DNA from: Halothiobacillus sp. | GTDB taxonomy: Bacteria > Pseudomonadota > Gammaproteobacteria > Halothiobacillales > Halothiobacillaceae | Length of the DNA: 64,000 bases | Assembly: GCA_016278265.1 (NCBI GenBank) | Contig: JADQCE010000001.1 | Location: forward strand, 806,001-870,000 | Direction of reading: 5' to 3' | Shown here: positions 2,040-63,597 of the stretch, in pieces | Numbering within the stretch: position 1 is the stretch's first letter | How the letters are laid out: each line of letters opens with the position of its first letter | The notes under the pieces: generated by a model | Database searches by the model: none | The model's input: only the letters and a program-made list of their open reading frames with translations | Told to the model about the DNA's origin: nothing | Position numbers and translations under genes: made by a program

Positions 2040-3497
2040 TCACCGCATGTCGGTTTCGTTGGTCAGTGGGCGAACCTTGCGGCGGTGGGCGCGCCAATCG
2101 GCCACGGCGCGGCGAAACCGCCCAAGCGAAGTGAGGTAGTAGATCACCTTGAGTATCCGGATCGAGCGCCAGATGGGGGTGCCCCGATGGATATCGGCCG
2201 CGAGCAGTGAGATCAGGGCTTCCTTGACGCGGAAAAAGTTGCGCGGCGCCATGAACAGGTCACGCATGACCGGCTTGGTGATGCGATAGATGAACCAGGA
2301 GAATTCCTTCGGTCCCCGGCGCACCTGGCGATCGTAACGGGCCAAGGCCTGCTCGGCCCGCGCCGGCTCGCGCAACACGGTGTCAATCGCCTCGCTGCCG
2401 AATACGCCGCTTTGCATGGCGAGAAACACGCCGCTGGAGAAGACCGGGTCGATGAACATGAAGGCATCGCCCACCAGGATGAATCGCTTGCCGTGGCTGC
2501 GATCGGCCGAGTAGGAGAAGTTGCCGGTCGCCTGCACGTCGCGCACCAGCGAGGCCTCCGACAGGCGGCGCTTGAGTTCCGGAACCGTGTCGATGTTATC
2601 GAACAGGAACTGCTCGAGCGAGCGCCCCTGGCGCGATTTCATGTGGTAAGGCCAGGTGACCATGCCCACGCTGGTGACGCCGCTTTTGAGCGGAATGAAC
2701 CAGAACCAGCCGTGGTCGAACCAGAACAGGGTGATGTTGCCCTCGGTCTGGCCCGGATTGCGCACGGCGTTGCGGAAATGGCCGAAAACAGCGGCGCTGT
2801 TGTGCTTGCGGCTGCGGCGCTTCCAGTCGTGGCGGTTGGCGAGGAAGGTGTCGCGCCCGGTGGCATCGGCAACGAAGGCCGTGTGCCATGTCTGCTTTGT
2901 GTCGGCGTCATCCTGGGTGGCCTGCGTAGTGATGGTCGCGTGGTACTCGCGTCCCTGATCGTCACTGCGCGCGGCATCGTGAAACTCGATGTCGACCACC
3001 TTGGTGCCCTCGAAGGTGCGCACCTGGTGGCGTTCGGCATTGCGGAACAGGATACGGTCGAATTCGGCGCGCTCGACCTCGTAGGCCTTGGGCATGGACT
3101 TGTCCCAAGCCTCGCCGAAATTGTAGTGCTGGGTGTGATCATGCGCCGGCGAGACGAACTCGGCCCCCCATTTGTCGATGCCGATCTCGGCGATCTCGTC
3201 GGCCACGCCCAGGGTTTCGAACAGCTCGAGGTTCGCCGGGAGGAGCGATTCGCCGATATGAAACCGCGGGTGGTGTTCCTTCTCGACCATGACGACGTCA
3301 TGTCCCTTGCGCGCCAGCAGGGTGGAGAGGGTCGAGCCGCCCGGTCCGCCGCCGACGACGAACACGTCGCAATAGCCACCCGTGGCGACCGCGTCGGCTT
3401 GATGGTCACCGCTCGGGGAGCGGGAGGGGGAGGAGGTAGCGTCCTGGGCGTGCATGCGGTCAGCCTTCGTGGCGGTGATCGGTGGTTTGGGGTTCAC
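2040..3497 (-). CDS. Flavin-dependent halogenase-like oxidoreductase
   Basis: 485 residues. A Rossmann FAD motif (GGGPGG) lies at residues 49-54 after a poorly conserved leader of about 40 residues; an alternative start at Met15 would shorten it. The halogenase signature WFWFIP (W-x-W-x-I-P) is at 264-269. FIDPVFSSG at 348-356 matches the F-x-x-P-x-x-S-x-G motif of flavin-dependent halogenases. FHIGESLLP near 79-87 and GIDKWGAEF around Lys109 resemble phenol/pyrrole-type halogenases, with Lys109 the candidate catalytic lysine (inference). Xanthomonadins are brominated aryl polyenes, so halogenation of the aryl head group or polyene is the natural role. It would need a flavin reductase from elsewhere. 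First gene of the leftward operon. Confidence 0.85.
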   Translation of the reverse strand: MNPKPPITATKADRMHAQDATSSPSRSPSGDHQADAVATGGYCDVFVVGGGPGGSTLSTLLARKGHDVVMVEKEHHPRFHIGESLLPANLELFETLGVADEIAEIGIDKWGAEFVSPAHDHTQHYNFGEAWDKSMPKAYEVERAEFDRILFRNAERHQVRTFEGTKVVDIEFHDAARSDDQGREYHATITTQATQDDADTKQTWHTAFVADATGRDTFLANRHDWKRRSRKHNSAAVFGHFRNAVRNPGQTEGNITLFWFDHGWFWFIPLKSGVTSVGMVTWPYHMKSRQGRSLEQFLFDNIDTVPELKRRLSEASLVRDVQATGNFSYSADRSHGKRFILVGDAFMFIDPVFSSGVFLAMQSGVFGSEAIDTVLREPARAEQALARYDRQVRRGPKEFSWFIYRITKPVMRDLFMAPRNFFRVKEALISLLAADIHRGTPIWRSIRILKVIYYLTSLGRFRRAVADWRAHRRKVRPLTNETDMR

Positions 3498-4008
3498 GCC
3501 GGCCGGTCACATCCTGACGGCCTTGGCAGCGGGTCGATATGATCGGAGTCCGGGCAGGTCGCGTCAACTTCGTTGCCGGGGCGAACCATTCGCGTGCCGG
3601 TGATGCCTATCGACCGGCTCGCCGGTTGGCGTTGCTTGAACGCCGAGGTCGGGCCGTGCGATAGTCGCGCGCTTGAGGAAACCCTGCACGATTCGATGGC
3701 GCCTCTGGCTCGCGGGTTTGTTCGCAACCAAGGCGCGGTGCCGAAGGCGGGCTCATTGCCCGGCGAGGGGCGGCAACGCCGAGTGCGGGCAAACCCGAGT
3801 GCGGGCAAACCCGCGAGCCCCTTTTGGGCGGGCCGCCAAGGACCCATTTGCGGCGTTGCAGTCCTTGTAAATGATCCCCGCCATTCACGGCGGAATGCGC
3901 CTTGTAACTGGGCCCTTGGCGGTCCCGCAGAGGCACTATCGAATCGTGCAGGGTTTCCTTTAGCAACGGTGGATCAACGGATCACCGAATAGACAAGGTG
4001 AAGTCAGG
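3498..4008. other. Divergent intergenic region between two polyene operons
   Basis: This 511-base spacer separates the leftward halogenase operon from the rightward PAP2-ketosynthase operon, so both promoters should lie here. I see no convincing protein-coding gene. More than half is taken up by the 284-bp inverted-repeat element described separately. About 180 bases remain upstream of the halogenase and about 50 upstream of the rightward operon. I could not pick clear -35/-10 boxes by eye. Confidence 0.8.
3676..3959. repeat. MITE-like non-coding element with 32-bp terminal inverted repeats
   Basis: Bases 3676-3707 and 3928-3959 are inverted copies of each other, identical at 30 of 32 positions (start AGGAAACCCTGCACGATTCG). 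Inside, 3708-3720 and 3806-3818 form a second, perfect 13-bp inverted pair. Bases 3781-3796 and 3797-3812 are a 16-bp tandem duplication. No transposase or other gene fits inside. This is the architecture of a miniature inverted-repeat element whose transcript could fold into nested hairpins. No perfect target-site duplication is visible. A degenerate copy of one end occurs at 63559-63597. Family assignment is unknown. Confidence 0.8.
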
Positions 4009-4764
4009 GTGGCATCGGAAGACAGAGGAGGTGGTAGCGCAGCGACGGGCCGGGACGCATGGTGGCGGGAACTCCTCCGGCGGTTCGCCTGCTGCTGGCT
4101 CCTGAAGGGGCTGGGCACCACCGTGCTGATGACCCTGTTCTTCATCGCCTACTTTTACCTGCTCAACGCGCCTCGGGATGAGCCCGTGGTCATGCCCGAA
4201 ACCTGGATCGACCATCAGGTCCTGTTCCAGCCCTACTTCTTCTACTTGTATGCCTCGCTGTGGGTATATGTCTCCCTCGTCCCGGCCCTGATGCCGGATC
4301 GGACGACATTGGTGCGTTACGGGGTGGCGATCAGTGTGCTGTGTCTGGCCGGCCTGGCGGTGTTTCTCGCCTTTCCCACCAGCATCGAGCGTGATCCGGG
4401 GCTGTGGGCGGGCGAACCGGCCTTTGCCTGGCTGGCCGCCGTCGACAGCGCCGGCAACGCGTTCCCCTCCCTGCATGTCGCCACGGCCCTGTTCAGTGCC
4501 TTCTGGATGGATCGCCTGATTCGCGCGATCGGCATGCCTGCCTTCTGGCGCGGACTTTCGGCGCTCTGGGCGCTGGGGATCGTGTATTCCACCCTGGCCA
4601 TCGGCCAGCACGTGGTCTGGGACGTGGTCGGCGGCGCGATGTTGGCCGCCGCCTTCGCCTGGATTTCCGCCAACCGGCTCTCGGTGCGACACCCGGTCGA
4701 GGCGCGATCCGAGCGAGGCACGAGCCTCTCCTCCATTGACCGATCGCCAGAGGTGGATCCATGA
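4009..4764 (+). CDS. PAP2-superfamily membrane phosphatase/phosphotransferase-like protein
   Basis: 251 residues with about five or six hydrophobic segments. It carries the PAP2 signature in two parts: NAFPSLHVATA (residues about 148-158) and GQHVVWDVVGG (about 200-210), with the Ser-His and His-x3-Asp residues expected for the phosphoryl-transfer site. PAP2 membrane enzymes dephosphorylate lipid or isoprenoid phosphates, or act as phosphotransferases (inositol-phosphorylceramide-synthase type). In this operon it may process the lipid carrier of the polyene (inference). The start is GTG 4009; the stop overlaps the next ATG (ATGA). It is the first gene of the rightward polyene block and lies about 50 bases from the inverted-repeat element. 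Confidence 0.75.
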   Translation: MASEDRGGGSAATGRDAWWRELLRRFACCWLLKGLGTTVLMTLFFIAYFYLLNAPRDEPVVMPETWIDHQVLFQPYFFYLYASLWVYVSLVPALMPDRTTLVRYGVAISVLCLAGLAVFLAFPTSIERDPGLWAGEPAFAWLAAVDSAGNAFPSLHVATALFSAFWMDRLIRAIGMPAFWRGLSALWALGIVYSTLAIGQHVVWDVVGGAMLAAAFAWISANRLSVRHPVEARSERGTSLSSIDRSPEVDP

Positions 4765-63558: not shown

Positions 63559-63597
63559 GGAACCTCTGCACGTTTCGATGGTGCCTCTGCGGGACCG
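63559..63597 (+). repeat. Remnant of the inverted-repeat element end
   Basis: 39 bases here match the reverse complement of the right end of the 3676-3959 element at 35 positions: GGAACCTCTGCACGTTTCGA against GGAAACCCTGCACGATTCGA, then GTGCCTCTGCGGGACCG shared. It occupies nearly the whole 51-base gap between moxR-like and DUF58 genes. No second arm is nearby, so it is a solo end or fragment. Confidence 0.72.

Follow-up and report, generated by a model that had tools for sequence, protein, structure and literature searches.

MITEPsy1 of Pseudomonas syringae carries the end GGAAGGTCTGAAAAAGCC and uses CTAG or YTAA as 4-nt targets; in the available portion of that report its authors derive it from ISPsy2, a member of the IS5 family, and record its transposition (PMC3189936). 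The accessible text on IS5 gives YTAR as the target motif (PMC10359306). In Neisseria, a Correia element lies just past the mtrCDE promoter, and the part of the report at hand describes RNase III cleavage at its terminal inverted repeats (TIRs), an IHF site and the inversion of Correia elements (PMC10969869). The 64,000-nt stretch of DNA analysed here (the window) contains a non-coding element between two divergent operons (Table 1). We consider it very probable that this element is a MITE moved in trans by an IS5-type transposase, that its family has spread in Guyparkeria, and that the copy in the window lies in the leader of a PAP2/ketosynthase operon, where its most likely effect would be post-transcriptional.

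Table 1. Features of the element and its surroundings, in window coordinates
Feature	Position	Strand	Remarks
FAD-dependent halogenase-like gene, first of leftward operon	2040..3497	-	
Promoter-like site TTGACG-17-GATCAT facing leftward operon	3539..3567	-	sigma-70 scan
Promoter-like motif TTGAAC-18-GATAGT, TGC before -10	3636..3665	+	8/12 consensus bases, below scan threshold
Left target flank TTGA, imperfect duplication	3673..3676	.	4-bp register taken from family
MITE copy GGAA...TTCC, 282 bp	3677..3958	+	commonest length in family is 266 bp
Left terminal inverted repeat, 31 bp	3677..3707	+	
Hairpin arm 1	3707..3819	+	outer stem 3707-3726 / 3800-3819
Hairpin arm 1 core CAAGGCGC...GCAACGCCG			enlarged in window copy by 16-bp duplication
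16-bp tandem duplication, two units CGAGTGCGGGCAAACC	3780..3811	+	
Hairpin arm 2	3828..3927	+	main stem 3830-3849 / 3906-3925
Hairpin arm 2 core			similar to arm 1 core, opposite orientation
Right terminal inverted repeat, 31 bp	3928..3958	-	
Right target flank TTTA	3959..3962	.	4-bp register taken from family
PAP2-family gene, first of rightward operon	4009..4764	+	start codon (GTG) assumed
Solo end fragment, same MITE family	63559..63597	+	BLASTN and end-pattern search

A preliminary description of this DNA had placed an element at 3676-3959. An element is indeed there, and its limits were corrected by removing one flank base from each side. The nested inverted repeats that it had reported were confirmed far beyond chance: the outer repeat has 37-nt arms (3671-3707 / 3928-3964) that are 89% complementary, and the inner repeats are 90% complementary in arm 1 and 85% in arm 2. 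Allowing up to 3 mismatches, the end pattern matched three times in the window, with an expectation of 0 from shuffles. The predicted DNA fold of 3660-3975 had a free energy of -109.6 kcal/mol (z -10.5), and 0 of 100 shuffled sequences folded as well. The tandem duplication is also real, and it is private to this copy (one of 75 aligned full-length copies). An origin of one arm as an inverted duplicate of the other was rejected, as their local similarity was not significant (270 of 2000 shuffles were as good). The absence of a gene inside the element was upheld: none of the four ORFs that cross it had a Pfam match at E<=0.01, and no reading frame was open in all 75 copies, the best being open in 55. 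The length was 266 nt in 46 of the 75 copies, and the rest vary by indels whose lengths are in many cases not divisible by 3. The covariance models of Rfam 15 had no match at E<=1 within 3400-4200. The family is also represented by a solo end fragment close to the window's right edge.

The leftward operon starts with genes for a halogenase-like FAD enzyme, a chorismatase-like protein and an acyltransferase, and the rightward operon with genes for PAP2, two ketosynthase-like proteins and a short-chain reductase; a gene for an MMPL transporter is nearby. This gene content, as predicted from sequence, fits a putative polyene cluster, and the rightward operon is probably the pigment operon. The motif TTGAAY-17/18-GATAGT with TGC before the -10, which was picked by eye from the sequences and counted afterwards, is found ahead of the rightward operon in all seven genus genomes with the PAP2 gene and only once in the window. 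A sigma-70 scan of 3400-4120 gave two sites instead of this motif, one leftward (3567-3539) and one rightward and farther upstream than the motif (3514-3543). Both are outside the element, and the suggestion that it could carry promoters is not supported. The element starts 11 nt past the -10-like box of the rightward motif and therefore should be transcribed within the leader, which would be about 335 nt long if transcription is assumed to begin at about 3672 and the GTG at 4009 is the start codon. In genome G007, which has no element at this site, the corresponding GTG is about 40 nt after the -10. An RNA folding prediction, which the preliminary description had proposed as a check, found a strong fold for the leader (3672-4020; -204.4 kcal/mol, z -10.4), and 0 of 100 shuffles were as good. 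The preliminary description put the element inside the divergent promoter. Its location is indeed intergenic, yet not between the promoters: the conserved rightward motif is upstream of it, and so is the leftward site. This arrangement is suggestive of a position in the leader of the rightward operon.

BLASTN of 3660-3975 against its own genome (G000; 2.73 Mb, 23 contigs) found 30 loci at E<=2.2e-7. These represent at least 27 distinct places after the pairs L014/L022, L023/L024 and L005/L029 were merged, and the number is a lower bound because 40 of 48 candidates were scored. The ends of the family occur there 20 times in forward and 19 times in reverse orientation at up to 3 mismatches, and a reversed-pattern control gave 0. 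Matches at E<=1e-5 were found in 11 of 30 related genomes. Within the genus, taken as Guyparkeria, 10 of 11 genomes matched, the exception being G003 (64% complete); beyond it, the only match among 19 genomes was in G015, which is probably H. neapolitanus, judging from its REP-dimer elements. The expectation that the element is inserted and repetitive was thus borne out in its own genome and in relatives, its ends recur elsewhere in the genome, and it is not a single-copy region.

The end 16-mer was found in 9 of 274 genomes of the class. Outside the genus, the end-arm-arm-end architecture was seen in G164 only, a member of another family, and it is shared by the four copies there of which both ends could be read (L133, L134, L135 and L150); further stretches of G164 are cut by contig ends, truncated or without the architecture (L149). 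The element is multi-copy in G164 and is often at contig ends (L133-L135, L144-L148, L150). These copies hint at horizontal transfer between families. The architecture was absent from the stretches read in G138, G168, G188, G210 and G230. The 16-mer occurred in 90 stretches of viral contigs, of which 80 (L217-L296) were examined for a partner end. Weak ones (3-4 mismatches of 16) turned up in 16 of these, which were not taken as elements. Plasmid and phage collections gave no element match at E<=0.01. From 94 candidate stretches, 89 had two ends (L020, L026, L028, L029 and L030 did not), and removal of two duplicates left 87 copies. The length of 77 of them is 258-283 bp, and 75 were aligned after omission of L191 and L200, which are orthologues of L183. 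Two-ended copies of the window's own genome are intergenic in 22 of 23 cases by our own gene caller, which tolerates overlaps of up to 60 bp. Their neighbouring genes are arranged as -/- (8), -/+ (7), +/+ (6) and +/- (1). Extra small palindromes are present inside an arm of L019, L023, L025, L134, L135, L209 and L214, and the longest copy is 351 bp, as if the arms grew by hairpin insertion or duplication.

Identical 4-bp flanks were found at 26 of the 87 two-ended copies (shuffled mean 7.9, maximum 18 in 2000), although the GGAA boundary was chosen after the flanks had been inspected and the copies are not all independent because some of them are orthologous. With registers of 2, 3 and 5-9 bp the counts were within the shuffles. 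The targets are CTAG, CTTG, TTAA, TTAG and similar sequences of YTAR type, and CTAG is the commonest flank (23 left, 21 right). The duplication of the window copy itself is imperfect (TTGA/TTTA). Copies of the family start with GGAAACTCTG, GGAAGGTCTG or GGAACCTCTG, several of them with GGAAGGTCTG, and resemblance to known IS5-type ends is confined to the outermost 10 bp or so. TIRs, dispersed and mostly intergenic copies, lack of a gene, target duplication at the family level and an empty orthologous locus characterise the family as MITEs.

No insertion sequence with the 31-bp ends of the family was found in the genus, related or other-family genomes, the plasmids or the viral contigs searched. 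The single PF01609 ORF of the window's own genome was rejected as a parent since it has different ends; it is the only such case among the 11 genus genomes. PF05598 matched at E<=0.1 in 5 of 17 chosen genomes (over the cut-off in 4), and in the genus solely as a stop-containing stretch in G003. At 14 transposase loci of G138, G168, G188 and G210, none had the 16-bp end at up to 3 mismatches. Two IS5-group elements of 1279 bp, identical to each other and with GGGCACCTCGAAAAACC-type ends, are present in G015. GGG[A/C]NCCTC-like ends are found on these elements and at four of five plasmid IS5 loci, the fifth (L308) having no clear ends. In G164, the IS5 remnant next to a truncated copy apparently has its own end sequence, TTCGAGGCACCC. 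Because searches of the genus genomes yielded no parental IS5, the family is probably old in Guyparkeria.

We propose that an IS5-type transposase recognised the 31-bp ends in trans, and that insertion would have taken place at a YTAR-like tetranucleotide with duplication of those 4 bp. The family would then have spread through Guyparkeria. At the site studied here the element would be transcribed as most of the leader, forming one outer stem and two hairpin arms. By analogy with the Correia element past the mtrCDE promoter, the double-stranded leader might be cut by RNase III or hinder ribosomes, so that the rightward operon would most likely be affected after transcription.

The same site was compared in the seven genus genomes that have the PAP2 gene; a PAP2 match was not found in G003, G004, G006 and G008. 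Four genomes have the element at this spot, one has another copy further on and two have none. Besides the window copy, the element is present in G002 in the same orientation, in G001 in the opposite orientation, and in G009 as a 108-bp internally deleted remnant in the opposite orientation, with the right flank as in the window. The copy in G010 is about 45 bp further on and may be inside the first codons of the PAP2 gene rather than in the leader. The comparison with strains lacking the element, which had been suggested earlier, was provided by G005 and G007, where the site is empty and the flanks are too diverged for the exact pre-insertion target to be read. Three genomes of another genus with a PAP2 match (G013, G015 and G017) have no element at the site. 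Exact insertion points may differ by 1-2 bases between the pairs G000/G009 and G001/G002. In a tree from which the G009 remnant was omitted, the window copy belongs to one subfamily (97/92) and the G001 and G002 copies to another (92/94, below the 95 mark); this split implies independent insertions or conversion. The proposal of a recent insertion is not supported, given occupancy in four of seven genomes, though the subfamilies point to more than one event of insertion or conversion. Independent insertions might also have been favoured at this leader, an explanation that is possible but doubtful. The displaced copy of G010 and the two subfamilies would fit with it. A single insertion followed by inversion and by conversion from other copies would be an alternative, however, and a local target hot spot would suffice. 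Moreover, the site was not a random choice, and the G010 element may not be in the leader at all.

Orientation was also compared across orthologous sites. Flank matching among the 87 copies gave eight orthologous-site groups, of which L007/L206 and L162/L167 were matched by one flank only, and three of the eight have mixed orientation. One of these three is the polyene site. The other two are L168/L171 and L192/L186. In the first, the flipped L168 has its orthologue L171 as its clear nearest neighbour (0.921; clade 99/91). In the second, the copy nearest to L192 is the orthologue L186 (0.970), yet further members of the subfamily are almost as near (0.962-0.966), and L186 itself is nearer to L190 and L198 (0.977) than to L192; insertion points and flanks agree. 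The simplest reading of these sequences is that inversion in place occurred at two of the three mixed sites. The matching ends probably allow such an inversion occasionally by recombination, a mechanism that we infer from the flipped orthologues. These changes argue against an orientation-specific role. It would be possible to go further and regard the element as an invertible leader switch, which flips within a population, folds differently as RNA in each orientation and sets expression of the pigment operon, its repeated capture reflecting selection; we consider this very unlikely.

Flipping at three of eight orthologous sites also speaks against the explanation that the element is a selected structured RNA (a cis-regulatory leader, an mRNA stabiliser or a small RNA) and that transposition is a mere means of its spread. 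RNAalifold of the 75 full-length copies predicted an outer end stem and two arms with 89 pairs, of which 41 had at least one two-sided compensatory change. Shuffled alignments gave a mean of 15.1 and none of 500 reached 41, although these counts are not probabilities because the sequences are related; sliding the partner by 1-3 columns gave 13-22. The end stem accounts for 19 of the covarying pairs, and one transposase reading both ends could produce them. The other 22 are in both arms, beyond the ends (helices 2-6, 9, 10, 12 and 13), where recognition by a transposase does not explain them, but self-correction of palindromes could mimic compensatory change. Conservation of 90% or more extends over much of the internal sequence, and in 57 of the 75 copies the given strand forms the more stable RNA of the two strands (mean difference -4.1, sd 6.6 kcal/mol), both of which would suit selection on an RNA. 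So would occupancy of the region upstream of PAP2 in five of seven genomes by at least two separate insertions. G.U cells outnumber A.C cells by 552 to 131, but this excess is inflated because the structure prediction allowed G.U, and in the end stem the two are even (64 to 63 in the rows printed). The lack of an Rfam match and the varied gene arrangements around 22 copies also count against a selected RNA, which we regard as unlikely. The element might instead be a REP/BIME-type palindrome moved by a RAYT or another single-strand transposase. It is intergenic with two hairpins per unit, and in the available text CGTC-1 REP dimers of H. neapolitanus are in 41-bp palindromes (PMC3733652); elements that fit these are present in G015. 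However, in the same text REPs measure 20-40 bp and have GTAG or CGTC tags (PMC3733652), and the element has 31-bp TIRs, a length of 266-282 bp and a 4-bp target duplication. This origin is hardly credible, and a MITE of IS5 type is preferred.

Our study adds an abundant and apparently unnamed MITE family of sulfur-oxidising bacteria, with covarying arms and flipped orthologous copies. The kind of element is known. No description of the family was found in the literature covered on repeats of Guyparkeria and Halothiobacillus, most subscription papers and preprints lying outside that coverage. The accessible text of the Guyparkeria pangenome paper does not mention transposition, insertion sequences or mobile elements, and uses 'repeat' for CRISPR only (PMC9032823). 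The locus offers a natural comparison in which the same promoter motif is followed by the element present, flipped, shortened or absent across related species, and this bears on the effect of a hairpin leader of about 280 nt on a bacterial operon.

Three described systems are close to this family. The CGTC-1 REP dimers of H. neapolitanus come from the same bacterial family and likewise have IS5-like ends (GGGAAGCTCGAAAAACCC... in most rows read) around two hairpins. In G015, 11 elements (L336-L346) were read; they are about 110 bp long, except for the shorter L343, and have IS5-like ends around two short hairpins. Their ends are like those of the two identical IS5-group elements there, and they fit the CGTC-1 REP dimers as far as the available text describes these (PMC3733652), which suggests that the dimers ride as IS5 MITEs. 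Unlike the present MITE, the G015 elements are about 110 bp long, with short hairpins and a different end sequence, and no relationship of these hairpins to the present arms was noticed. A shortened copy of the MITE (L348) adjoins one such IS5-like REP-dimer element in G015. The resemblance to MITEPsy1, in the part of the report available, is in the GGAAGGTCTG-type end, the 4-nt target CTAG or YTAA and the lack of coding sequence (PMC3189936). MITEPsy1 is 100 bp long with 18-nt repeats and had six copies in the strain described there (PMC3189936), whereas copies of the present family measure 266-282 bp, end in 31-bp repeats and contain two internal arms; they occupy at least 27 places in one genome, and no parent IS was found. 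The Correia elements resemble the window copy in their reported position directly downstream of a promoter, here a promoter-like motif, and in their reported inversion; promoters and an IHF site are reported for them in the accessible text (PMC10969869), whereas no sigma-70-like site was found in the window copy.
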